Shown here piece by piece: positions 2,910 through 20,068 of a stretch of 20,212 nucleotides of DNA. The stretch covers positions 1 to 20,212 of IMG/VR virus record IMGVR_UViG_3300017917_002779. The stretch is one strand, 5' to 3'. The stretch is from a virus. Positions within the stretch are counted from its first letter, which is position 1. Each line of letters begins with the position of its first letter. Below the pieces are notes generated by a model. It had not been told where the DNA came from and ran no database searches. It saw only the letters and a list, made by a program, of their open reading frames with translations. Made by a program: the position numbers and the translations under genes.

Positions 2910-3962
2910 TTAGAAATCAAGTTTAACTCTAATAAGAGCTTCTTTAGTAAAATCTTTAGTTAATGGTCTTGATAATTTAGCAACCGCTAACAAATCATTT
3001 GTATCATTATATAATCCAATAGTTGTAATATAAGTTTGTGGATTATTAATAAATTGAGAATATAATACCTCACCAGTTGAACCTGAAATGAATGAAGGGT
3101 TTTCTGAGTAGTTATATTGTGAACTTCTTGGTCTTACAAATACATAATCAGAAGTAATTGTTTCTTGTGAATTTAATGTAAATGTATTTGCTGAAGAACC
3201 GGACATAGCTCTAAATAAGGCAGCATTAGCATTAGTGGCAGCATTATAAGCTACGTTTCCAGTGAAAGTAGAACCACTAAAGTTGAAAGAAATACCTCCA
3301 CTAATTGGGGGTTCTTTTAATGCTAATGGATTTAACAAAATAGATCCGATATCAGGTAATAACCAACCATAAGATCCAGAATTAACAGAATAACCATCTG
3401 TTGTTGTACCACTATTTGTATATTTAGTACCTGCTGAACCTGATATTAGTTGGAATACTCTACCTGCTTCACAATATTGAACAGTAGAAACATATTGGCT
3501 ATTATCTGTTAATGAAATAACTCCTTGGCTTCCTGAAAGTTCTAATGTTAGAGATCCTAAGAAAATAGAATCTTTGTAACATGCTCTTTCCATAGTAAGA
3601 GCAAAGAATTCTGAAGAAGTAATAGCACCAAATACGAAATTAGCATTTTCGTCTCCTAATACTAAATCTTGCCATTGTCCCCAAATTGTAGATGATGGTG
3701 ATTTACCATTTACAGCACTATTATAGTTTGCACTACCGCTACCATAAGAATTACCATAAGCAATAGCAAATTGTACTGCTGAGCTGGATTCATTTGATGC
3801 TGTGTTATAAACATTTAAATAATAGTTTCCTGAACTACCATTTGCTTGTGTAGATGATGTGAAAAAAGTAGATAAAGTTGGATTACCGGTTGTCCAACAC
3901 GTGGATGAAACGGCATCTGAACTTACTACGAAATCATCGGCTACTAATCTTGTATAAGACAT
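2910..3962 (-). CDS. Virion structural protein (tail/baseplate appendage) sharing a C-terminal module with the next gene
   Basis: The 350-residue product begins MSYTRLVADDFVVSSDAVSS and is dominated by Ser, Thr, Asn, Gly and Tyr, with many SGS and GSS phrases. Recognisable phrases are SSTIWGQWQDLVLG (90-103), YGWLLPDIGSILLNPLAL (198-215) and the C-terminal module at about 282-350 (QYNYSENP, SGSTGEV, YITTIGLYND, LLAVAKLSRPL, RVKLDF). The same module ends the protein encoded at 1876-2904. Four or more cysteines are present, unusual among these neighbours. The 10-base gap upstream holds only A/T (TATATAAAAT before the ATG) and no Shine-Dalgarno. The upstream gene encodes another structural protein with the start motif MGYLNNTVV. 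Function is inferred from composition and context; a tail-fibre attachment or baseplate-periphery role is likely but unproven. Confidence 0.7.
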   Translation of the reverse strand: MSYTRLVADDFVVSSDAVSSTCWTTGNPTLSTFFTSSTQANGSSGNYYLNVYNTASNESSSAVQFAIAYGNSYGSGSANYNSAVNGKSPSSTIWGQWQDLVLGDENANFVFGAITSSEFFALTMERACYKDSIFLGSLTLELSGSQGVISLTDNSQYVSTVQYCEAGRVFQLISGSAGTKYTNSGTTTDGYSVNSGSYGWLLPDIGSILLNPLALKEPPISGGISFNFSGSTFTGNVAYNAATNANAALFRAMSGSSANTFTLNSQETITSDYVFVRPRSSQYNYSENPSFISGSTGEVLYSQFINNPQTYITTIGLYNDTNDLLAVAKLSRPLTKDFTKEALIRVKLDF

Positions 3963-4677: not shown

Positions 4678-7600
4678 TTATATTGTTTTGAAAAATCCCG
4701 CGGATTGAGCTATTTTCAATACATTGTTTTTAATATCTGGATTTAGAGTAGAAGGAATTAAAAGACCAGGATTTTCAGTTTGTACTGGGGTGAGAGAATT
4801 AGGTACATATAATAATACACTTTGTTCATTTAATAAGAAATTATTTCCTCCTAATGAAGAAGTATAAAATCCACCCCCTAAAAATACTGGGATAGCTGAA
4901 CCTGATGTTACATTAGAACTTCCAGAAGTAGGTGTAAATACGTTTACGGATGAACTTCTAAAAAATAAATCACCAACTAAACCTCTATTACTTAATAAAC
5001 TTTCGGTTGGGGAAGCATTAGTTGTAATTCCAAATCCTGTGGTTCCTGCTTGGTTAGCTGAATTTAGAGTGATTGTTTCTCCATTACCATTTATTAATGT
5101 AGTAATAGTTACTTGATCTACTGTAAATGGATAGTCACTACCTGCGTTATATCTAGTAATATTTGTATAATAAGCAAACCAATCACTATAAGTTTGTACG
5201 TTAGGTATAGCTCCTATAGTACTTCCTTCATTCATAGGTTGTCCAACAAAAAAATCAGCTATTGATCCAGTTGGAGAAGATGTTTTACATCCATTATACC
5301 TTGGGTTTGTTACTCTAAGAGTAGTATAGTTAGAATCTTGTACAGGAGCTTTTGTAGCACTTCCACTTAAAATAGCTTGTTCGTTAACTGCTATAGTAGG
5401 ATTTGTTTGAAAATCAACATCCATGTATTTTGTACTAAATCTTGGAATTTGAGAATCATTAGCTATTACTAAACAATCAGGTTCAATATATGATTCAAAA
5501 ATTGTAAGATTTAAATTAAAAATAAAAGTATCTCCAGGACTTAAAATTTCTTGAATAAAGAAATATAAAGGATTTAGAGGATTATTAATTTCTAAAGTAT
5601 TTACAGTTAAACTACTTCCTGCAGATATGTTAGAACTTGTATAAAATGTTTTTAATGGATCTTGTTGGTTTAAATATATTTTCCCAGCATATGAATTTCC
5701 AGCATTAGCTGTAGCCGTAAATGTTAAATAATATGTTTTATCTACATTTAAATATTGAGAAGGAATATAATATTCTAAAGGACCAGTGTCTCCATTCAAT
5801 ATTATACTTGATGTATTATATATTTGAACTAAAGTTACATTACAATCACTTAAATCACCATTAGTAACTACTAAATTAGAACCACTTAATTGCCCATCAT
5901 AAAACTCTGTTTGAGATGATTGAACAAAAGGTACAGCACCACTTACTGAAGGTGTTGCTCCGTTCCAACTTTGAGTTACATTTACAACGTTTGTATACGT
6001 GTATAATGAAGAAGTTTGACCAAGTAAATCAGGATATGAACCTCCACTATTTCCGTCAGTATAACCAACAGATATAGAACCTGTAAGAGTCATATCCTCA
6101 ACAATGTAAGGAGTACCAAGCGGTCCTGAACCTGAAGTATTAGATCCTACTTGAGCAATAGAAGTAGAAGGACTAACCTGTGGTACAGGATATCTATTTC
6201 TATCTAATAATGTATTTTTTACTACAATTCCCGCTGCCAATGAAGACCTAGCAGGAATAAAATCTTGTAACATTTTAAATAATGAGTTATCAAAAAACTC
6301 AATTAATCTAATGTAATCCCACTCCTGATAGTTTGAAGTATATTTTTCAAAATATACATCTCTAATAGCATCTAAATCAGGATATGTTACTGCGGATGAA
6401 GATTGGAATCTAGGATCTCCAATTACATCTCCTATATTAAAGTAACCTAATTGTGAGTTTATATCCTCATTTATTTCATTTTGAGGTGAAAAAGCGATTT
6501 CAACATAATCAATATCTTTAGTATAACTAGAACTTATTGCTGGGAATTGTTGGATTGAACGATAAGGAGATAACACATTAGCATTTGGTATATTCGAATT
6601 ACTACTACTATAAGGTAAAACAATATTTTGTTGTTTTACTTTGTCTGAAATAGCGTTTTGAATACCTGCTGGAACTTGATCAAAGAAAAATACTTCTTGG
6701 TTAGAAATAAAATCATAACTTCCACTTAAGTAAAAATTACTAGTTCCAACAAATGAAGAGGTAGGTACCCAAGATCCTGTTACTTTTGGATGAACAGAAA
6801 TAGAAGCAGTATATAATTCTCCTCCTAAAGTAGCTCTAAATGCTAAGTTTTCACTTGACTCAATTGAGTAAGGATTCATTACATAAGCATCAAAATTACT
6901 TTCAGATAAAGCTGATTTGTAATATCTAATTTCTTGAAAAGAACCTGAGAATATTTTGCCTGCTAATGAAGATGAAATACCAAAAAATGATTTAGTACTA
7001 TTATTCCAATTAGTAACTGCTGTTGTTACTGATGAAGATGCTTGCCATCCTATAGTATTACCATCCTCACCATTATAATTTTTATCCTTAGCATATAATG
7101 TGTAATTGGTTCCTTGTTTATTTACTAAAACAGACCACCATCCACCATTATAAAAAGGTAAATAAACACTTGCTGATGAATTAGGTGATGCTGGGTCAGG
7201 AATAAAGTCTAATTTAGCAAACTGGTTATAAGGATCAACAGGTTGTCCTAAATAAGAACCACTATTGTATCCTGATCCTGTATATTTTAATACTAATTTA
7301 ACATTTTGGTCTGTTACCCATAAACTTTGAGAAGCAATACTTCCTGTATTATATGGTAAACCATCTGTTCTAAATCTAAATTCAACTGATTGAGGTTTGT
7401 TATTAGAAGCAGCCCAATCTGAATTTAGAGTAAAAGATGAACTAATATAAGATGATCCACTTGTATAAAAAGCATAATTATAAGTATCTTCCCAATTATC
7501 GTATGTATTTGGATTTCTGTCTTTACCTCCAAATTCATTAATACGAATAATAGTATCAGGAACACCAAATAAAGTAATTAAAGCTCTTAATCCAGCAACA

Positions 7601-9267
7601 CTTCCTTTTTTCTTTAAAATATAAGGAACACTATTGTATATACGTTTGTATATAGAATCATTAAGATCCGAAGTTGGGATTAATGAACTTGTTGATGAAG
7701 CCGTAACATAAGTAGAAATATATTCTAATCCTGAATTAGCAGGGACTGGTAATGAACCTGTTGTAAATGGTAAGTTATATAAACTGCCTGATGGAGTTAT
7801 ACCAATTAATGCTTGATAAAGATCATTAGATGAAAAATTATTTTGGTAAATTTTTATACCTAAATCTCGTAAAATATCTGCTACTAAATCTTTAGGAGCA
7901 CCATAAGTTAATCGGTTATCATTATCTGCTTTAGTTGTAACACTTTGAATATAAACAAAAACATTATCAAATAATTGCCCAACCATTTCAACAAATAAGT
8001 CAAATTGAGCATTATTTGGATCTTCTAATAAATAAGAAGGAATAGCTAATGTTAAAGCGTTATTATTTTCTAAATCATATTCCTCAGCTACTAATGATTG
8101 TGTTACAAACCAGTTATATCCTTGAACTGAACTGGTTGAATAATTTGTATAAGGGGGTGTTGATGATGTTTTAGGCCAACTTGTTGAACCTGATGTGAAA
8201 TATAAATAATATTCATAATCATCGAAAGTAGTAATAATAGCATCTATTTTATCTTGCCATATATTATTACTTTGGGAAATATAATAGTTAGTAGTAGTTC
8301 CTGTTGAATAACTAGCACTGTAATTATATTGTTCTATTAATCCTAATTTATAATAAAAGTTTTCTAATCTAGTTTGTGCTGAAGAGAAATGAATAAAATT
8401 AGAATAGTTTGAATAGTCAACGTTAACTTCAACTCCTCTTTTAACTAATAAGCTATTTAATTGATACTTTAAACTACCTGATCCTTGATTAGAAGGAGTA
8501 CTTGTTAAAGTATTAAAGTTAGTATAAGAGGTAGCATTATTGTATTGATCAGTAACATTTAAATTTGTATTAGGACCTTTTAAATATATTTTATCATCAA
8601 CAACATCAAATACTTGAGTAATATCAATGTTGTAAGCAACAGGTTCTGAGACTTGAGTTACTGCCCAACATTGAGAATTTATAGTAAATTGTTGTGGTAA
8701 AGGTTCATATAATTTAATTAAAACTGTAGGGTTATTAGGGTCTGTATTGTCTAATAAAGCATTAACAGCAATAACTAAATCATTACTACCAAAATTTAAA
8801 TAAAAATCATAATAACTTCCAGTTGAGTTTGTAATATTACTTATTAATTCTAATGAAGAAGAAACTACTAAAGCATTAGGAATAGATGTCGTATCTAATC
8901 TAACTTCTGTTCTATCAGCACTAATTTCTGATATGAAGTAAGGGTTAAAATTATTAGAACCTAATTTTGGACTTAAAAAGTTATATAAAGTATTATATTG
9001 ACCCTCTGTATAACCATAGGCTTTTAAATCAACTTCCGGAGATAAAACAACATTATTATCTATTAATTTATATCCAGGGTATCCACTAACATTTTGAAGT
9101 AAAATATTACCATTTAAATCATAAATAAAATATTCTAAATAATCTGTTTGAGGATTAAATGTTGTATCTATATTAAATGAATTAATAAGAGATGTATCAG
9201 AAGTAGAGTATTCCTGAAGTTCAAAAGTGAACGGGTTTAATGGGGATATGTTAACTATTTCAGCCAT
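4678..9267 (-). CDS. Giant composite tail/baseplate protein: P2 gpI-like wedge motif plus LamG/ConA-like domain
   Basis: At 1529 residues this is the largest protein here. The first 530 residues are Tyr/Asn/Ser/Thr-rich with no recognised domain. Residues 547-581 (VPYILKKKGSVAGLRALITL onward, ending NEFGG) resemble the KGT-x-A-L/R-x-AL-x-x-G motif of P2 gpI-type wedge proteins. Residues about 608-790 look like a LamG/concanavalin-type jelly roll: a strand ending VEFRFRTDG, a WWSVLV strand, and the closing phrase FQEIRYYKSALSESNFDAYV. A phrase at about 990-1020 (FFDNSLFKMLQDFIPARSS) and another at about 1280 (KYMDVDF, then ILSGSATKAPVQDSNY) belong to a tail-protein type I associate with Bacteroidota phages. 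The remainder is beta-rich, probably adhesive. It follows the gp25- and gp6-like genes, where a gpI/gp7 equivalent is expected, and its start overlaps the 113-residue gene's stop (TAATG). It may join a wedge part to a receptor- or glycan-binding part. Confidence 0.75.
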   Translation of the reverse strand: MAEIVNISPLNPFTFELQEYSTSDTSLINSFNIDTTFNPQTDYLEYFIYDLNGNILLQNVSGYPGYKLIDNNVVLSPEVDLKAYGYTEGQYNTLYNFLSPKLGSNNFNPYFISEISADRTEVRLDTTSIPNALVVSSSLELISNITNSTGSYYDFYLNFGSNDLVIAVNALLDNTDPNNPTVLIKLYEPLPQQFTINSQCWAVTQVSEPVAYNIDITQVFDVVDDKIYLKGPNTNLNVTDQYNNATSYTNFNTLTSTPSNQGSGSLKYQLNSLLVKRGVEVNVDYSNYSNFIHFSSAQTRLENFYYKLGLIEQYNYSASYSTGTTTNYYISQSNNIWQDKIDAIITTFDDYEYYLYFTSGSTSWPKTSSTPPYTNYSTSSVQGYNWFVTQSLVAEEYDLENNNALTLAIPSYLLEDPNNAQFDLFVEMVGQLFDNVFVYIQSVTTKADNDNRLTYGAPKDLVADILRDLGIKIYQNNFSSNDLYQALIGITPSGSLYNLPFTTGSLPVPANSGLEYISTYVTASSTSSLIPTSDLNDSIYKRIYNSVPYILKKKGSVAGLRALITLFGVPDTIIRINEFGGKDRNPNTYDNWEDTYNYAFYTSGSSYISSSFTLNSDWAASNNKPQSVEFRFRTDGLPYNTGSIASQSLWVTDQNVKLVLKYTGSGYNSGSYLGQPVDPYNQFAKLDFIPDPASPNSSASVYLPFYNGGWWSVLVNKQGTNYTLYAKDKNYNGEDGNTIGWQASSSVTTAVTNWNNSTKSFFGISSSLAGKIFSGSFQEIRYYKSALSESNFDAYVMNPYSIESSENLAFRATLGGELYTASISVHPKVTGSWVPTSSFVGTSNFYLSGSYDFISNQEVFFFDQVPAGIQNAISDKVKQQNIVLPYSSSNSNIPNANVLSPYRSIQQFPAISSSYTKDIDYVEIAFSPQNEINEDINSQLGYFNIGDVIGDPRFQSSSAVTYPDLDAIRDVYFEKYTSNYQEWDYIRLIEFFDNSLFKMLQDFIPARSSLAAGIVVKNTLLDRNRYPVPQVSPSTSIAQVGSNTSGSGPLGTPYIVEDMTLTGSISVGYTDGNSGGSYPDLLGQTSSLYTYTNVVNVTQSWNGATPSVSGAVPFVQSSQTEFYDGQLSGSNLVVTNGDLSDCNVTLVQIYNTSSIILNGDTGPLEYYIPSQYLNVDKTYYLTFTATANAGNSYAGKIYLNQQDPLKTFYTSSNISAGSSLTVNTLEINNPLNPLYFFIQEILSPGDTFIFNLNLTIFESYIEPDCLVIANDSQIPRFSTKYMDVDFQTNPTIAVNEQAILSGSATKAPVQDSNYTTLRVTNPRYNGCKTSSPTGSIADFFVGQPMNEGSTIGAIPNVQTYSDWFAYYTNITRYNAGSDYPFTVDQVTITTLINGNGETITLNSANQAGTTGFGITTNASPTESLLSNRGLVGDLFFRSSSVNVFTPTSGSSNVTSGSAIPVFLGGGFYTSSLGGNNFLLNEQSVLLYVPNSLTPVQTENPGLLIPSTLNPDIKNNVLKIAQSAGFFKTI

Positions 9268-9608
9268 TATATGCTTCCTGAGATTATTTGTTGTTGTAAA
9301 GATAGATTTTCTTGTCTTAATTGAGTAACTTCTTCAACTAATGCTTGAATAGTATCGTCTGTTGGATTTGTAGTACCTATATAATTCCCACTTGTTGTTA
9401 CAAGGTATTGATGAGAATTTATATCTCCAAGTTTAGGTATTTGATAGAACAAATCTTGGTAATATTGAAAAAATTGTTCTACAGAAATTGTAGGTAACGA
9501 TTGGGTAAGGGAAGAAGTAACATTAACCAATTGATTAAAAGTAGTATTAATTACTTTTTCATATTGGTTTTTTACATAAACAACTTTATTTAAATTTATT
9601 TGTTCCAT
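9267..9608 (-). CDS. Small virion-associated protein with C-terminal coiled coil
   Basis: The 113-residue product has FFQYYQDLFYQIPKLGDINS in the middle (about 46-65) followed by HQYLVTTSGNYIG. The C-terminus is a leucine/glutamine heptad region (about 85-108, IQALVEEVTQLRQENLSLQQQ) likely to form a short oligomeric coiled coil. The DLFYxIPxxGDINSHxYLV phrase recurs, as I recall, in small proteins beside tail genes of T4-like phages; no function is known to me. It is sandwiched by TAATG overlaps between the DNRLRE-like gene and the 1529-residue gene, so it is probably made in step with them and may act as an adaptor, trimerisation partner or assembly factor for the large protein. Confidence 0.7.
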   Translation of the reverse strand: MEQINLNKVVYVKNQYEKVINTTFNQLVNVTSSLTQSLPTISVEQFFQYYQDLFYQIPKLGDINSHQYLVTTSGNYIGTTNPTDDTIQALVEEVTQLRQENLSLQQQIISGSI

Positions 9609-10786
9609 TATCCGTTAATTACTTTAAAGTAATATTGATCATTAAATACAATTGTTGAACCATTTATTGTGGTTTGAATTAATATAGTATAGTATCTTTC
9701 GGGTTGTAAGAAATTCATATACATATCAAAATAACTAGAAGTAGCATCAGCACTTAATTGAGTATATCTAGTATCAAAATCTACTATATATTCATTAGTT
9801 TCTAAATCTTTTAAAGCCCAATAAGTTGAACCTGAAGGTAAATAATAGTTGTTTGTATAAACTGAAGATGTTTGCCATAATTGAACAGGATATTCAGGTC
9901 TAGCATTTATTCTAAATCTATTAATACTTTCACTATAAAATACTCCAGGATTTTGAGCTAAGGTAATTACTGCTGGAAGTGTGTTTAGAACTGTTTGTGT
10001 TGATGAACCAGTGTTCCACACAGAATCGTCCCAACTAATTTGTAATGCTGGTGGGTATATTGTATTAGTATCAACAGAATAATATTTTAATTCTGGTTGG
10101 TAGTTTTTATTGTAAACCCATTCTAAGTTTTGTTTTAAAAGGAAACCATGATTATTTAAAGCATAAGGAGATAGTGAAGATGTAGTCCAAGCTCTAACAA
10201 TATTTGTTACATCTAAATTAATATCTTTATTAGTTCTATATGAGAAAGTTACTGATGAAGAATAAGCAGATCCAGTATACCAAACACCACCTCCAACAGG
10301 ATACATTTGTTGTCCTGCTTGGTTAAGTGATTGAGTATATGAAGATGTTGCTCCTGTAGGATAGTTATATCCATTAGCAGGAATAGACCAAAGAGTACTT
10401 CCAGAATATCCTGCCCAAATCCAGCTGGTACCATCAGTTGATATAGGATCATCTAAATATCTTCCTGTTCCCATATCCCAATCCTGTGCTACAGGATAAC
10501 AAACAACAGATGATGTAGTATTCAATCCGGTTGCTGTTGCTATAAAACACTGTAATTTGGCATTCCAATTTCCACTTTGATAAGTAGAATCAGACATAGG
10601 TCCAAAAGCAGATACTATATCCTCTTCAGCAAATTTAACTAAAAATCTACTAGCTTGAGGTGAGGGGTTTGAATAGGCAAAAGTTGTAAGAGTAGCTTCT
10701 ACAATTTCATCTAATCCCGTATTCATATTAGGGAATAGAGAATATAATGTAGCGTCTTTTTCGGGGAATATTTTTAGTACTGCCAT
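9608..10786 (-). CDS. DNRLRE-domain-like structural protein
   Basis: The 392-residue protein shows the pattern of DNRLRE-type beta modules. It begins with IFPEKDATLYSLFPNMNTGLDE (about 6-27), has a middle strand set VVCYPVAQDWDMGTGRY (about 94-110), and then LDVTNIVRAWTTSS with NNHGFLLKQN (about 191-220). In bacterial surface proteins such modules form jelly-roll-like domains on the outside of the cell. In a phage baseplate operon the domain probably serves as an external decoration or adhesin scaffold. The C-terminal third (about 250-392) is a separate beta-rich part with FRINARPEYPVQLWQTSS. It lies between the gp6-like gene (4-base gap) and the coiled-coil gene (TAATG overlap). I am fairly sure of the N-terminal domain type and much less of its role. 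Confidence 0.7.
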   Translation of the reverse strand: MAVLKIFPEKDATLYSLFPNMNTGLDEIVEATLTTFAYSNPSPQASRFLVKFAEEDIVSAFGPMSDSTYQSGNWNAKLQCFIATATGLNTTSSVVCYPVAQDWDMGTGRYLDDPISTDGTSWIWAGYSGSTLWSIPANGYNYPTGATSSYTQSLNQAGQQMYPVGGGVWYTGSAYSSSVTFSYRTNKDINLDVTNIVRAWTTSSLSPYALNNHGFLLKQNLEWVYNKNYQPELKYYSVDTNTIYPPALQISWDDSVWNTGSSTQTVLNTLPAVITLAQNPGVFYSESINRFRINARPEYPVQLWQTSSVYTNNYYLPSGSTYWALKDLETNEYIVDFDTRYTQLSADATSSYFDMYMNFLQPERYYTILIQTTINGSTIVFNDQYYFKVING

Positions 10787-10790
10787 TTTG

Positions 10791-12653
10791 TTATAAATTT
10801 ACTACCCTTCCTTGAATATCAGTATTTGGGTATTTTACTTCAAATATTGAAGGATCTAAAGAAGGATAAATTACATTATTCTGTGTTGCTGCTGATATAT
10901 CATAAGCATATTTACTATATCCTAAATTTTCTCCTGATAAATTGTTAATAGTTACATTTTGTACTGTTTGAACTCCTTCAATAGCGTCTAGTAAAATATA
11001 AATATCTCTTAATACTATAGGTTCATTAATAGCCCATTTATCAATAGCAAAGAAATCTTTTAAAGCAGTAATACATCTTGTTAACACATCATTACTATTA
11101 AAATTAGGTAAAACTATAATACTAAAATTAACTCCAATATTAATAATAAACCCATCTTTAATATTAACAGAATCATTAACCATTCTATATTGAGATAAGT
11201 ATGTAGTTAAATTCTGTTTTAAAGCAGGTGATGCTGTGGTTAATTGATTACTTACGTTATATGACAACACATACAAGTCTAATACGGATTGAGATTCACC
11301 TGCAGATATTGATTGTGCTTTTGTTGGTTCAATATATGCTTTAGAAATAACTCCATACTTAGCAGGCATTGAAAGTGTTCTTACTAAATAATCGTCTTGT
11401 GTTACGTTACGTAATTGTGAAGCAAAATTAGCAGAAGCATTTTGTCTAATTTCTTCTATTGAATCTCCATCTCCACCACCATCAGCTGCTACTGGATTTG
11501 TAACTGCTAATGAATTAAATATTGTGTTTGCTGTAGATCCATTCAAGTTACTATTTAGGAATTGAATATTACCTGTTATATTTGTTAAATCATTTGATGG
11601 AACGTTTGCAGTAACACCACCACCTACTAAATATCTAACTGATAAAGTTGTATTTGAAGGAGCAATACCATAAGTGTTGGTAAATATAAAATTGGAAGGT
11701 GAAAATGCAGTTGTTAACTTACTTTGTCCAAAAGGTAATCCTAAACCTACGTTATTTGGGTTAGGAATTATTTCAGCATCATTATCAGCTGTAGTTCCTG
11801 AACCAAACTGTAATTGTAAGGTTGTTGAATCTAGGAAACGAGTTGCAAATCTTCTTTGAATTAATTTTAATTGTAAAATATAAGGAGTATCACCTGAGTA
11901 TTGAGATAGGTTTGGATCATTTGTATTTGTATTTTTGATAGAATCAAATACTGTTTCTTGGGCCAAATAATCTACTTCATACCATTTATCTCCTGTTGTT
12001 TGGTCTGTAATATCTAAAATACCTACAATTTTTTCTCCAGTAATTTCTACTGTTGAGAAAGGAACTGGTGCTCCAAATGAAAAAGTAGTAGTATTAATAG
12101 TAGCAGATGAAGCTTTTCTTGTTTTCTTTAATAGATAATATGTTGGAGTTACTCCACTTACTGAATAAATAGAAACTTCTGTAGGGTCACCTGAGCTAGA
12201 TACTGAAAAATCTACTGGTTCTCCTACTAAGAAAGAAACATTTGAATTACTTGTTGAATTAACTACAGCATTAGAATCAATAAATAAAGCATAACTAAAA
12301 TCAGGTACATAAGTTGAACCTGATAACAAAGCTGGTACTTGTTGATAAAAATCAATATCTGTAGTAGCAACTTGAGTTACATTTGGTTTATAACCAAACA
12401 TATATGCTAACTCATATAAATTATTTGTTTGGCGAGCATATTGTAAATAGTTTTCTTGGATTTGATTATCTAAATAGAATGATAAAACATCACCTACATA
12501 GGCAGCCATTTCCATAAACATCATACCTGGTGATGCTGGAGTAAAATCGTTGTAAGTTGTAGGGAAATAAGTTCTAGCATAGTCAATTAAACTAGCCCTT
12601 AGTTCACTAAAGTCCTTATTGATATAGGTTATATTTCTTTTTTTAGTAGCCAT
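10791..12653 (-). CDS. 6: Baseplate wedge protein, T4 gp6-like (baseplate J family)
   Basis: The 620-residue protein (T4 gp6 is about 660) starts with ITYINKDFSELRASLIDYAR (9-28) and then TPASPGMMFMEMAAYVGDVL (38-57) followed by SFYLDNQIQENYL. This is the hallmark N-terminal region of gp6/baseplate-J proteins, with its SPGMMFMEMxAYVGDVLxFY signature. In T4, gp6 dimers form the continuous ring that ties the six wedges together and changes shape when the sheath contracts. The C-terminal part has ADGGGDGDSIEEIRQNASANF, another typical J-family phrase that precedes the conserved core. Its stop lies 4 bases before the DNRLRE-like gene; its start overlaps the gp25-like stop (TAATG). The gp25-gp6 adjacency is conserved from T4 to P2 (W-J), which strengthens the call. 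Confidence 0.93.
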   Translation of the reverse strand: MATKKRNITYINKDFSELRASLIDYARTYFPTTYNDFTPASPGMMFMEMAAYVGDVLSFYLDNQIQENYLQYARQTNNLYELAYMFGYKPNVTQVATTDIDFYQQVPALLSGSTYVPDFSYALFIDSNAVVNSTSNSNVSFLVGEPVDFSVSSSGDPTEVSIYSVSGVTPTYYLLKKTRKASSATINTTTFSFGAPVPFSTVEITGEKIVGILDITDQTTGDKWYEVDYLAQETVFDSIKNTNTNDPNLSQYSGDTPYILQLKLIQRRFATRFLDSTTLQLQFGSGTTADNDAEIIPNPNNVGLGLPFGQSKLTTAFSPSNFIFTNTYGIAPSNTTLSVRYLVGGGVTANVPSNDLTNITGNIQFLNSNLNGSTANTIFNSLAVTNPVAADGGGDGDSIEEIRQNASANFASQLRNVTQDDYLVRTLSMPAKYGVISKAYIEPTKAQSISAGESQSVLDLYVLSYNVSNQLTTASPALKQNLTTYLSQYRMVNDSVNIKDGFIINIGVNFSIIVLPNFNSNDVLTRCITALKDFFAIDKWAINEPIVLRDIYILLDAIEGVQTVQNVTINNLSGENLGYSKYAYDISAATQNNVIYPSLDPSIFEVKYPNTDIQGRVVNL

Positions 12654-13060
12654 TATATAAATGCTAATTGTATTTCATCTGTTAATCCAGTATCTTTTAT
12701 ACTATATTTTAAAACAACATTAATTTGATTAATATCTGGGTATGAGAGGATATCTAAACTTCCAATAATTACATTTTGAAAATATAATGATAATTGAGAT
12801 TGGATATCTTGTTTTAAGTATTCTGTATTTCCTTCGGTAATTTGTTGGAAAATAAATGCTCTTAAGTCTCCACCAAATGTTGGATTTAAATATCTTTCGT
12901 TTTTATTGGTTAAAAAGAAATTAATTAAATTATTTTTGATAGATGCTTGTGTTGTATAGTTTGATTTAAAAACAGCAGGAGCATTAAAAGGAATATCAAC
13001 CCCAACAGCAACGGAAGGTGCTGTGTCTATGGGGAATATTTTTTTAGCTCCAAATGCCAT
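12653..13060 (-). CDS. 25: Baseplate wedge protein, T4 gp25-like
   Basis: The 135-residue length is close to T4 gp25 (132). Residues 37-47 (TQASIKNNLINF) and 54-70 (NERYLNPTFGGDLRAFIF) form the family signature in which a conserved E-R pair before the P-x-F-G turn stabilises the fold; E55 and R56 are present. The C-terminus has the expected beta pair (INQINVVLKYSI, DEIQLAFI). In T4-like and P2-like contractile systems gp25/gpW contacts the sheath initiator and links wedge to hub. It is coupled by TAATG overlaps both to the 116-residue gene upstream and the gp6-like gene downstream. The domain is unrelated to true lysozyme activity despite the historical family name. Confidence 0.93.
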   Translation of the reverse strand: MAFGAKKIFPIDTAPSVAVGVDIPFNAPAVFKSNYTTQASIKNNLINFFLTNKNERYLNPTFGGDLRAFIFQQITEGNTEYLKQDIQSQLSLYFQNVIIGSLDILSYPDINQINVVLKYSIKDTGLTDEIQLAFI

Positions 13061-15891: not shown

Positions 15892-16599
15892 CTAAAAATT
15901 TGTATATCCATGTTCTAAATAAAATACATAACCTTCTTTAAATATGTCGTAGAGTTGATTTGCAATTTTGGTAATTTTTGGTGTTTTAACGTCTACAATT
16001 TCACGGATATAAATGTAAAGTGCTTTTTTATTAAACACATCTAAATTTTCTCGTTTGCGGAATAATTCTAAAATGGCATCCGCAATTTGAGCGTCATATT
16101 CTTTAGGAAATAAATTATAAATGTTTCGGGTACAATATTCGGTATAAATGTCTATAAACATTGATAAACGTTCATCGTGCGAAGTATCATCTATACTGTA
16201 TGAATGTTCCTCATCTTCCTCAAGAGCATCTAAACCTATAGTATCAATACGTTTTTTGTAATTTTTCTGATTAGAAAGTATTAAATAGCGTTTTGCAATA
16301 GTTCCAAAATATGAATATGCTTTAGCTCCTTTTTCAGGATTAAATAAATGAATTTTAGACAGAAGGAAAGTAATTACTTCATGTTGTAAGTCCTCAATAT
16401 TTTCTACTTCTGTATAATAAAATTTAAAAGTATGAATAATGTTTTCGGTAAGTTTAAAAAAGGCATAGTGAATCCTATCATGATAGATTCTACTTTTTAA
16501 TTCAAAATCATCAGTGTTATTGTATAATACAATAGCATCTTCAGTATCTTGGGTAAAGTATTGTACCCCTTTTTTCTTTTTTACTACTACCTCTTCCAT
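15892..16599 (-). CDS. 55: Late-transcription sigma factor, T4 gp55-like
   Basis: The 235-residue protein (T4 gp55 is 185) carries a sigma region-2-like core at about 67-118: ENIEDLQHEVITFLLSKIHL, then FNPEKGAKAYSYFGTIAKRY and a basic NQKNYKKR. This is the layout of gp55-type late sigma factors of T4-like phages, including the FNPEKGxKAYSYFGT phrase where the helix meets the -10 strand. An acidic linker (about 123-143) follows, then a second helical part with KKALYIYIREIVDVKTPKIT (191-210), also typical of the family. The aromatic tail YVFYLEHGYTNF could bind the sliding clamp as in T4, but that is inference. It overlaps the membrane protein stop by TAATG. It would replace the host sigma on RNA polymerase and direct late genes, which begin right downstream. 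No region 4 for a -35 box is evident. Confidence 0.87.
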   Translation of the reverse strand: MEEVVVKKKKGVQYFTQDTEDAIVLYNNTDDFELKSRIYHDRIHYAFFKLTENIIHTFKFYYTEVENIEDLQHEVITFLLSKIHLFNPEKGAKAYSYFGTIAKRYLILSNQKNYKKRIDTIGLDALEEDEEHSYSIDDTSHDERLSMFIDIYTEYCTRNIYNLFPKEYDAQIADAILELFRKRENLDVFNKKALYIYIREIVDVKTPKITKIANQLYDIFKEGYVFYLEHGYTNF

Positions 16600-18447: not shown

Positions 18448-18825
18448 TTAACCTATAACATCATCTAAATGATCAGGAATACCATCTCCATCCACATCAC
18501 AAACCTCCACGTAACCAAAAGCTTTCATAAAGCTAGCTACTCTTTCTTTTAAATCATTATCTGAATCTGCGAACCAATCTTCTTTAATTAAATCATGACC
18601 CAATACTGATGTTAAGGCAGTGTAAAGAACCTCTACATTTTCAACAAGATAGATATCTGGAGTATGGAAATCTAAACTAAATGCGTAATCATCTATTTGA
18701 GGGATTTTTAGTAAATCATCTATTTTACCTATTTTCTTTTCTGTAGGTACTACACCTCCAAATTTATGGAAGTATTCACCAACATATATATACCCTTGTC
18801 CTTCTTTTAATTGAAATTCGCTCAT
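18448..18825 (-). CDS. GIY-YIG/T5orf172-like small protein with calcium-loop C-terminus
   Basis: The 125-residue product resembles a T5orf172/MUG113-type GIY-YIG domain. It has GYIYVGEY at 11-18, KIGKIDDLLKIPQ at 31-43, a strand DFHTPDIYLVENVEVLYTAL (52-71) with a glutamate in the usual position (E62 or E65), and KEDWFADSDNDLKERV (81-96), the expected W-F and helix. The usual YIG tyrosine is replaced by K-I-G-K, and no arginine is seen after it, so catalysis is doubtful. The last 16 residues contain D110-V-D-G-D-G-I-P-D118-H-L-D121, an exact D-x-D-x-D-G-x-x-D-x-x-D calcium-binding loop of the thrombospondin type-3 kind. Its start overlaps the endolysin stop (TAATG). It may be a late, possibly virion or lysis-linked, protein rather than a homing nuclease. 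Confidence 0.55.
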   Translation of the reverse strand: MSEFQLKEGQGYIYVGEYFHKFGGVVPTEKKIGKIDDLLKIPQIDDYAFSLDFHTPDIYLVENVEVLYTALTSVLGHDLIKEDWFADSDNDLKERVASFMKAFGYVEVCDVDGDGIPDHLDDVIG

Positions 18826-19652
18826 TATTTTAATAAATTATAATATTCGTTGAAATGTTTAATACGGTCTGGTAATCCAATTGTGCCACCATTTACTCTT
18901 TTAGTTACTGCTGTTACTGTACCTTGATCAGCTCCTCTATCACAAATAGACCAAAGACCATTCTTATTAAAGAACCAAGCTGCAGACATCAAAGGATATT
19001 TAGTTGCTACTAAATCAGGATTAGCTATAATTTCTTCAGGAACAAAAGCATCGAATGCTTTATAATTATCCTTACCAGTTAATTGGATATAACCACGTCC
19101 TCTAAATTTAAATCCTTCTTTAGTAGCTTCAACTCCATTACCCATTCTACCTCCATAAACACGAGAAGCAATAGCTTCAGGTTTACGAGCATACTGTTCA
19201 GCTAAAGCTAAGGTTGGGAAATATTTCTTAAAAATACCCATTAAACCCTTAGAAGAATAATTTAAATTTTCTGATGTTGCTTTCCAACCTCCAGATTCAT
19301 GACCACATTGTGCTAAGAAATGAGCTAATCTTAAAGGATTAGTAATATTAAATTTAGCAGCAGTATCAGGAATTTGAGCAAGTACTGAATCTGGAATATG
19401 TCCTTTTAATTTATCTAATTTAAATGAACTAGAAGGAACAACTACTGGAGCAGGAGTAGTAGCAGGTGCTGTTCCCATAATTTTATTCCAAGTAGCATCT
19501 CCAACAATCCCATCCGCTGCTAAACCATTAGCTGCTTGGAATTTTTTAACAGCTTCCTCTGTTTTAGGACCAAAGTTACCCACAGGATCAACCCCTAATT
19601 TAATTTGAAGTTGTTTTACCTGTTCATTGTTATCACCTTTTTTTAATAGCAT
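18825..19652 (-). CDS. Endolysin: peptidoglycan-binding domain plus GH19 muramidase/chitinase-type catalytic domain
   Basis: The 275-residue enzyme begins with a peptidoglycan-binding type-1 domain (about 4-60: KKGDNNEQVKQLQIKLGV, GNFGPKTEEAVKKFQ, ADGIVGDATW). A Thr/Pro/Ala linker (61-78) follows, then a glycoside hydrolase 19 domain (about 85-270). In GH19 the acid is E119 in LAQCGHESGGW, with ENLNY at 128-132 and the family signature FRGRGYIQLTGKDNY at 183-197, then NPDL at 211-214. Phage GH19 enzymes cut the glycan strands of the cell wall at lysis. No signal peptide is present, so release would depend on the holin encoded 2 bases upstream. Its stop overlaps the 125-residue gene (TAATG). 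The N-terminal position of the binding domain is usual for phage endolysins of Gram-negative hosts. Confidence 0.93.
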   Translation of the reverse strand: MLLKKGDNNEQVKQLQIKLGVDPVGNFGPKTEEAVKKFQAANGLAADGIVGDATWNKIMGTAPATTPAPVVVPSSSFKLDKLKGHIPDSVLAQIPDTAAKFNITNPLRLAHFLAQCGHESGGWKATSENLNYSSKGLMGIFKKYFPTLALAEQYARKPEAIASRVYGGRMGNGVEATKEGFKFRGRGYIQLTGKDNYKAFDAFVPEEIIANPDLVATKYPLMSAAWFFNKNGLWSICDRGADQGTVTAVTKRVNGGTIGLPDRIKHFNEYYNLLK

Positions 19653-19654
19653 AT

Positions 19655-20068
19655 TTATTTATCTTTGTGTTTGTCAATTTTTTCTAAAATTGTATTTAAT
19701 AAGGAATGTTTGATAAAACCTGAATTAGAAGCATTTTTTAGGGCACTAATTAATTGAAAAATTATAAATGGTACTATAATAGTTTCCGAGAGCCAGGACG
19801 TACCTGGAAACCCAATTTCAACCATTAGTATTACTGTTAATATAATTAACCAAGTAAATGTTGTTTTTAATACTTTTAATGCTTTATAAGTTTTAAAACC
19901 TTCTTTCTTAGTACCAGCAACTATACCAAAAAACCCATCCATAAATGCCACTGCCACCACTGCTAAATACTGCTCACTATTGTCCATAGCTAATCCACCG
20001 AAGTAGCTACAAACAAAAGAGCAAGTTGTGGTTAATGATAATAGTAAAACTAGTAACGTTGATTTCAT
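19655..20068 (-). CDS. Holin-like membrane protein (Phage_holin_4 type)
   Basis: The 137-residue product has three or four hydrophobic segments: about 2-25 (KSTLLVLLLSLTTTCSFVCS), about 33-52 (YLAVVAVAFMDGFFGIVAGT), about 70-85 (TFTWLIILTVILMVEI) and about 95-110 (ETIIVPFIIFQLISAL). The phrase MDGFFGIVAGTKKEGFKTYK (about 43-62), with an aspartate and glycine in the second helix followed by a basic loop, and a C-terminal NTILEKIDKHK are typical of the Phage_holin_4 family. Such proteins form inner-membrane lesions that let the endolysin reach the wall. The endolysin gene begins 2 bases after its stop, and its own start overlaps the upstream membrane gene (TAATG). Confidence 0.82.
   Translation of the reverse strand: MKSTLLVLLLSLTTTCSFVCSYFGGLAMDNSEQYLAVVAVAFMDGFFGIVAGTKKEGFKTYKALKVLKTTFTWLIILTVILMVEIGFPGTSWLSETIIVPFIIFQLISALKNASNSGFIKHSLLNTILEKIDKHKDK

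Follow-up and report, generated by a model that had tools for sequence, protein, structure and literature searches.

Results

Organization of the locus

The DNA analysed here, called the window, is a 20,212-nucleotide stretch of an IMG/VR virus record. The following genes of its tail block are relevant to this study:

12653..13060, minus strand, gp25-like wedge protein or sheath initiator (phrog_261, E 8.3e-15)
10791..12653, minus strand, gp6/gpJ-like baseplate wedge protein (phrog_10646, E 3e-18; phrog_219, E 4.3e-14)
9608..10786, minus strand, 392-aa ORF between the gp6-like gene and the 1529-aa gene
9267..9608, minus strand, 113-aa ORF immediately upstream of the 1529-aa gene, with a C-terminal coiled-coil-like stretch
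4678..9267, minus strand, 1529-aa baseplate-wedge-like fusion protein (P0001), from the ORF call

The ORF of 1529 residues given in the preliminary description was confirmed on the minus strand (9267..4678), with its ATG overlapping the stop codon of the upstream gene. Wedge genes of the gp25 and gp6 types lie upstream of it, with two ORFs intervening after gp6, and the Flavobacterium immuto phages have an equal layout, including the two ORFs between gp6 and the homologue of the 1529-aa protein. The gp25-like ORF matched PF04965 with an E value of 8e-5, short of the cut-off, and family searches with the 392-aa ORF were without match. Within the 1529-aa protein the following parts were distinguished:

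7459..9267, minus strand, residues 1-603, first part of the scaffold, kept in relatives with and without the insertion
7678..7830, minus strand, residues 480-530, pre-KGT loop, of low confidence in AF2
7525..7629, minus strand, residues 547-581, P2 gpI-type KGT motif (hhalign against P2 gpI)
6682..7497, minus strand, residues about 591-862, LamG/ConA-like beta sandwich (AF2 and Foldseek)
6838..7467, minus strand, residues 601-810, cassette-like divergent segment (DNA comparison of relatives L048 and L051)
6592..7458, minus strand, residues 604-892, whole insertion, missing in the immuto phages and many other relatives
6163..6591, minus strand, residues 893-1035, second part of the scaffold, mostly helical and conserved in all forms
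4681..5838, minus strand, residues 1144-1529 (386 residues), hypervariable C-terminal module, whose counterpart in many relatives is a separate gene downstream
5269..5481, minus strand, residues 1263-1333, conserved segment diagnostic of the fused downstream gene

Relatives of the 1529-aa protein

At least 581 IMG/VR stretches are related to the 1529-aa protein. The annotated relatives that were found are labelled hypothetical or carry no annotation, and no credible match was obtained when the protein and its family alignments were compared with PHROGs, Pfam, NCBIfam and PDB sequences. A scan of a genome collection for the family gave two MAG contigs and no host. The gp161 protein of Flavobacterium phage immuto is 30-35% identical across the scaffold and has the same gene order, but no LamG insertion. 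In immuto the next gene, gp162, contains the C-terminal motif, and separate downstream genes carry fibre and spike annotations. Microcystis phage Mel-JY01 (167764-171774) and the jumbo phage LR756508 have the scaffold with insertions of 310 and 377 residues, respectively, at a site identical to that of the 1529-aa protein. These two homologues are about 25% identical to it, with strongly diverged insertion sequences, and as tblastn queries the Microcystis-phage and jumbo-phage relatives did not reveal further annotated relatives.

The scaffold and its KGT motif

The first part of the scaffold consists of an alpha/beta N-domain (residues 1-220), a helical block (297-470) and the KGT block. The N-domain was predicted with confidence (AF2 pLDDT mostly 80-93), and both it and the helical block are conserved family-wide; the first 530 residues, described earlier as unassigned, have no known relative but are not featureless. 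The motif at residues 547-581 (SVPYILKKKGSVAGLRALITLFGVPDTIIRINEFGG) had been recognized as KGT-type in the preliminary description, and its similarity to P2 gpI proved to exceed chance: in an hhalign profile comparison, residues 549-583 scored 32.6 against P2 gpI, approximately 8 s.d. above a column-shuffled null (mean 12.9, max. 20.5; 0 of 100 reached 32.6). The alignment takes in the KGT helix, the following strand and the Gly-Gly turn. Designed helical proteins matched by the KGT alignment were set aside as repeat artefacts.

Beyond this motif, PF09684 (Tail_P2_I) did not match the 1529-aa protein at E<=10, and the T4 gp7 family profile scored at chance level against the protein family. 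Foldseek retrieved no solved gpI or gp7 fold with the full model or with the model of the LamG-less form, an insert-less homologue (pTM 0.34, no match at E<=0.001). Confidence in the models was moderate by pLDDT (71), with pTM values of 0.46 and 0.34. The assignment as gp7 therefore depends on the motif together with synteny.

Two further candidate similarities were considered. The second half of gpI may lie after the insertion, where the order of secondary structure in residues 921-1014 of the predicted models is compatible with it, but the profile comparison of the second scaffold part (predicted helices 928-940, 963-975, 982-991 and 994-1003) with the C-terminal half of gpI (strand-helix-strand, KPxSRHL-type motif) scored at chance. 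Residues 395-450, suspected by eye to resemble the N-terminal core helices of gp6, likewise had a chance score (46 of 100 shuffles). The alignment register of these residues with the gp6 core helices was as expected.

A LamG-like domain as an all-or-none insertion

A LamG/ConA-like domain had been proposed at about residues 608-790, and the AF2 model and Foldseek agreed with this, with slightly wider borders. The best match was neurexin LamG (E 3.8e-6), with agrin and perlecan LamG and CBA120 TSP2 also found; the full model gave 53 matches at E<=0.001, and among the matches listed most were LamG or LamG-containing. As a control, the model of the insert-less homologue gave no match at E<=0.001. 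At the sequence level the Laminin_G_3 profile (PF13385) matched 1 of 66 family members, with a marginal E value of 0.045. Glycan binding is not universal among LamG-like folds, and ligand residues were not identified in this domain. Of the two folds named in the preliminary description, a jelly roll or LamG fold was thus matched, whereas a solved gpI or gp7 fold was not.

The LamG domain is an all-or-none insertion within the scaffold, which the preliminary description had missed. Among 168 family ORFs the insertion site was 14-53 residues long in 72 and 292-383 residues long in 92; because the family sample was gathered as ORFs similar to two queries, such proportions are not population frequencies. 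The insertion state changed only 3 times on the scaffold tree.

The LamG segment also diverges in a cassette-like manner between phages with near-identical scaffolds. Between L048 and L051 the DNA identity was 90-98% before codon 570, 84% at codons 571-600, 52-72% over codons 601-810 and 83-97% over codons 811-1050, and the divergent stretch is sharply delimited at about codons 601 and 811. For pairs of relatives whose KGT blocks are 80-90% identical, the median LamG identity was 64%. Other relatives have different additions: L147 has a cupredoxin-like insert after the KGT block (by our own reading of its sequence), L116 has a Fib_succ_major adhesin domain in the pre-KGT loop (E 2.1e-41), and L152 has an extra segment in the same loop.

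The C-terminal module

The C-terminus of the 1529-aa protein looks like a fused neighbour gene, which had also escaped the preliminary description. Among scorable relatives of the query-based sample, 55 have the motif of residues 1263-1333 in the scaffold-encoding ORF, and in 54 it belongs to a separate ORF. Family and PDB searches with the C-terminal module were without useful match. The earlier statement that the LamG domain is followed by 700 further beta-rich residues was wrong in part, as residues 893-1035 are mostly helical and residues 1144-1529 are hypervariable and evolve separately.

Discussion

We consider it probable that the 1529-aa protein is a gpI/gp7-type wedge component of a contractile tail, with an inserted LamG domain that serves as an auxiliary binder and a fused C-terminal gene. 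The scaffold (residues 1-603 and 893-1035) would form part of the wedge, next to gp25 and gp6. The LamG-type domain is predicted to sit in the loop directly after the KGT helix and the Gly-Gly turn, and would therefore protrude from the wedge rim, where it would most likely bind a host-surface glycan or a related polymer as an auxiliary contact, with separate fibres encoded elsewhere acting alongside it. A downstream tail gene, separate in many relatives, would have been fused onto the C-terminus. With LamG slotted into a loop and a neighbour fused, surface recognition may therefore be located in the tail frame and not in the fibres alone. The suggestion that one chain combines a wedge module and an adhesin is favoured by the gpI profile, gene order, LamG fold, presence and absence of modules and cassette-like divergence, although it lacks a match to a solved gpI/gp7 fold.

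The protein has in common with P2 gpI the KGT helix, strand and Gly-Gly turn of the profile alignment and a gene position downstream of gp25- and gp6-type genes. It differs in its length (1529 compared to 176 aa), its large N-domain, its inserted LamG domain and the two additional genes after gp6. T4 gp7 is likewise a large wedge protein after gp6 and by eye has a similar STKG...KFLFKLL stretch, but the profile comparison with the family was at chance.

It is rather unlikely that the protein is a wedge component in which the LamG-like insertion serves assembly or the docking of fibres, its variation tracking co-evolving fibres and not host receptors. A structural role is common among sandwich domains, Vibrio phage XM1 gp17, a gp7 orthologue, holds tail spikes via an internal loop and the C-terminus (PMC10457771), and the gp7-like part of AlgoCIS Alg12 makes fibre contacts (PMC8894135). 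However, Foldseek placed LamG domains and a phage tailspike nearest among the solved folds, and the wedge protein of phage Vp4 binds cells directly (PMC11406892).

We regard it as improbable that the protein is a baseplate-peripheral or fibre-base protein not akin to gpI and gp7, its KGT motif being a short convergent helix-turn. Such an origin would agree with the missing gp7/gpI fold match and T4 gp7 profile similarity, and with a gpI match spanning 35 columns only of a protein far longer than gpI. Against it are the distance of the motif score from the shuffled columns, the order of strands and helices around the motif, which agrees with gpI, and the tail block of the window, in which by inspection no other gpI candidate was seen. 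An assembly artefact, or two genes and an insert read through by chance as one ORF, is very improbable and already largely refuted: although about half of the scorable relatives encode the C-terminal module in a gene of its own, the uninterrupted architecture is repeated at full length in the independent contigs L004, L006 and L007 (76-84% identity) and fused forms recur across the tree.

For the wedge and glycan-binding module in one protein that we favour, published precedents exist in Vp4 Gp119 and AlgoCIS Alg11, and they weaken the earlier view that such fusions are unusual (PMC11406892, PMC8894135). Gp119, a Herelleviridae wedge protein with carbohydrate-binding modules, binds cells, whereas its module-less homologue Gp177 does not. 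Like the 1529-aa protein in the role proposed here, it is the third wedge component, with modules missing in a homologue; unlike it, Gp119 has CBM16/Xyn10B-type modules and a Gram-positive host, and the homology shown for it is to A511 Gp105 and not to gpI. Cassette exchange is not reported in the passages considered (PMC11406892). AlgoCIS, a Bacteroidota system, similarly has a wedge protein with an added domain, Alg11, whose addition consists of carbohydrate-binding modules; in Alg12, the gp7-like part has been termed a hotspot for re-engineering. It differs in that the modules of Alg11 form a spike cage and in being a contractile injection system, not a phage (PMC8894135).

A broader interpretation, which we offer tentatively, is that in an abundant, essentially uncultured lineage a wedge subunit has turned into a modular receptor-binding platform, whose loops and C-terminus exchange adhesins. 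Two internal loops and the C-terminus would accept LamG, cupredoxin-like and Fib_succ_major domains and a fused neighbour. As the exchange would take place in a wedge subunit, host recognition would thereby be coupled to a part of the baseplate that helps to trigger contraction. The results provide a testable annotation for hundreds of hypothetical proteins of uncultured phages. If the LamG domain binds hosts, one polypeptide would hold both attachment and the contraction trigger, and the family suggests where uncultured phages may hold host-recognition variability that is overlooked by fibre-centred host prediction.

Results

The protein under study is encoded by one reading frame within the 20,212 bases of the IMG/VR record:

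9267 to 4678, minus strand: 1529-codon ORF, its ATG overlapping the stop of the preceding 113-aa gene

The same uninterrupted ORF architecture occurs in three independent contigs (L004, L006 and L007, 76-84 % identity). A short divergent patch was seen at codons 351-400 (8068-8217), where DNA identity to L006 and L007 is 70-73 %, compared to about 86-95 % around it. A profile-based scan found at least 581 related stretches; the relatives were gathered by similarity to two queries, and family proportions are therefore not frequencies. Annotated phage records contained only three kinds of relative, namely Flavobacterium immuto phages, Microcystis phage Mel-JY01 and a 484-kb uncultured phage, in all of which the protein is hypothetical or unannotated.

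The LamG/ConA-like domain proposed in the preliminary description was recovered as a beta sandwich predicted at about residues 591-862 (AlphaFold2, 98 sequences), although it is barely visible to sequence profiles alone. In a Foldseek search against the PDB the window model gave 53 matches at E ≤ 0.001 (best E 3.8e-6), the top ones among the matches listed being LamG domains of neurexin, agrin and perlecan together with CBA120 tailspike TSP2. The modelled insert-less homologue (pLDDT 71, pTM 0.34) matched no solved structure at this threshold, and thus the LamG matches stem from the insertion (residues 604-892). The structure models are single-chain, of moderate confidence, and were read without coordinate inspection.

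The LamG module is an insertion, not a fusion at an end. Gp161 of the immuto phages, which lacks it, aligns to window residues 17-603 and 893-1143, skipping the rest. Among 168 family ORFs, which include the window ORF and the window's own copy, the distance from the block containing the P2 gpI-type KGT motif to the next conserved block is bimodal: 14-53 residues in 72, 292-383 in 92, and intermediate in four. On the scaffold tree LamG state changes three times; shuffles averaged 49 changes, and the module is thus stable within lineages. One intermediate ORF (L147) carries a segment of roughly 110 residues after the Gly-Gly turn that follows the KGT helix, which to us reads like a cupredoxin. 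Another relative has a different domain just before this helix:

L116 5808-6752: Fib_succ_major adhesin domain (E 2.1e-41), inserted into the wedge-like protein ahead of its KGT helix

In L152 an additional segment occupies this position, and the corresponding loop of the window model (residues 477-529) is largely of low confidence.

The KGT motif itself was found at residues 547-581, where it had been reported. Over 35 columns, the family profile (residues 395-590) could be matched to an alignment of 13 P2 gpI family members, pairing window residues 549-583 (YILKKKGSVAGLRALITLFGVPDTIIRINEFGGKD) with P2 gpI 76-110 (FIHCHKGTIGAIRRVVEPLGYLINVTEWWENSDPP). The score was 32.6, compared to 12.9 ± 2.5 (maximum 20.5) for 100 column-shuffled gpI alignments and 11.7 for the reversed control. 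Upstream lie gp25- and gp6-type wedge genes, with two ORFs (392 aa and 113 aa) between the latter and the window ORF, a layout shared by the immuto phages. The suggested wedge module is supported by motif and gene order. Against it, no gpI/gp7 fold was matched at E ≤ 0.001, PF09684 did not match the window protein, and profile comparisons of the family with T4 gp7, and of the residues after the insertion with the C-terminal half of gpI, were at chance level. We therefore call the protein gpI/gp7-like, by motif and gene order, and not a proven member.

Where the insert is present, the LamG segment varies more between relatives than the scaffold on either side. For pairs with KGT blocks 80-90 % identical, median identity was 64 % in LamG and 81 % in the following scaffold. 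The drop was sharp between two related stretches, L048 and L051, and less so in the pairs L067/L046 and L089/L099.

DNA identity between L048 and L051 along the ORF
Up to codon 570: 90-98 %
Codons 571-600: 84 %
Codons 601-810: 52-72 %
Codons 811-1050: 83-97 %
Codon 1050 to about 1290: largely unalignable

Recognition modules that are exchanged or diversify quickly would be expected to leave such a pattern, but so could modules that dock to different fibres.

Even the closest relatives diverge over residues 1144-1529: DNA identity is close to 50 % for the greater part of the segment, compared to 83-99 % across most of the gene preceding it. The conserved exception, residues 1263-1333, lies in a separate ORF in 54 scorable relatives, usually the next downstream (gp162 in immuto), and in the same ORF as in the window in 55; some cases may be missed because the protein sits at a contig end. 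With at least eight changes of state on the tree, the likeliest reading of the last quarter is a neighbouring tail gene joined to the wedge gene, the change having run either way (fusion or fission). The module gave no useful family or PDB match. Intein/Hint-like sequence motifs were seen in the C-termini of L145 (6001-11394) and L135 (6001-10620), and a Pfam scan of relatives' C-termini found intein splicing in two members and PT-HINT in one, not named singly.

Other ORFs in the window, all on the minus strand, were:

779-1432: homing-endonuclease-type, I-HmuI NUMOD-like domain (PF22083, E 4e-11)
1429-1872, adjoining it: homing-endonuclease-type, SegE-type GIY-YIG (PF19835, E 1.2e-23)
1876-2904 and 2910-3962: look like paralogues (common C-terminal TTIGLYND...LLA..KLS.PL motif); no family match over cut-off
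15892-16599: resembles sigma-70 region 2 below cut-off (E 3.7e-4); may encode a gp55-like late sigma factor
18825-19652 and 19655-20068: GH19 chitinase-type endolysin with peptidoglycan-binding domain, and holin family match; likely a lysis pair

Discussion

Wedge proteins with glycan-binding modules already have precedent. Vp4 Gp119 has two carbohydrate-binding modules absent from Deep-Blue Gp177, and only Gp119 decorated cells (PMC11406892). Two such modules are also present in the AlgoCIS wedge protein Alg11, and the same study describes the gp7-like part of Alg12 as a re-engineering hotspot (PMC8894135). The gp7 orthologue of XM1, gp17, uses an internal loop and its C-terminus to bind spikes (PMC10457771), and baseplate proteins are generally known to exchange domains (PMC10684548). 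Compared to the open-licence literature, what is new is the family itself, the site of the insertion with respect to the KGT motif, the LamG type of the domain, its cassette-like behaviour and the fused neighbour.

Judging from motif and synteny, the scaffold most likely builds the baseplate wedge, with LamG most likely protruding from a loop at its rim. Fold, variability and precedent suggest that LamG would bind a glycan or polymer as an auxiliary contact, to which the fused C-terminal protein most likely adds further variable surface.
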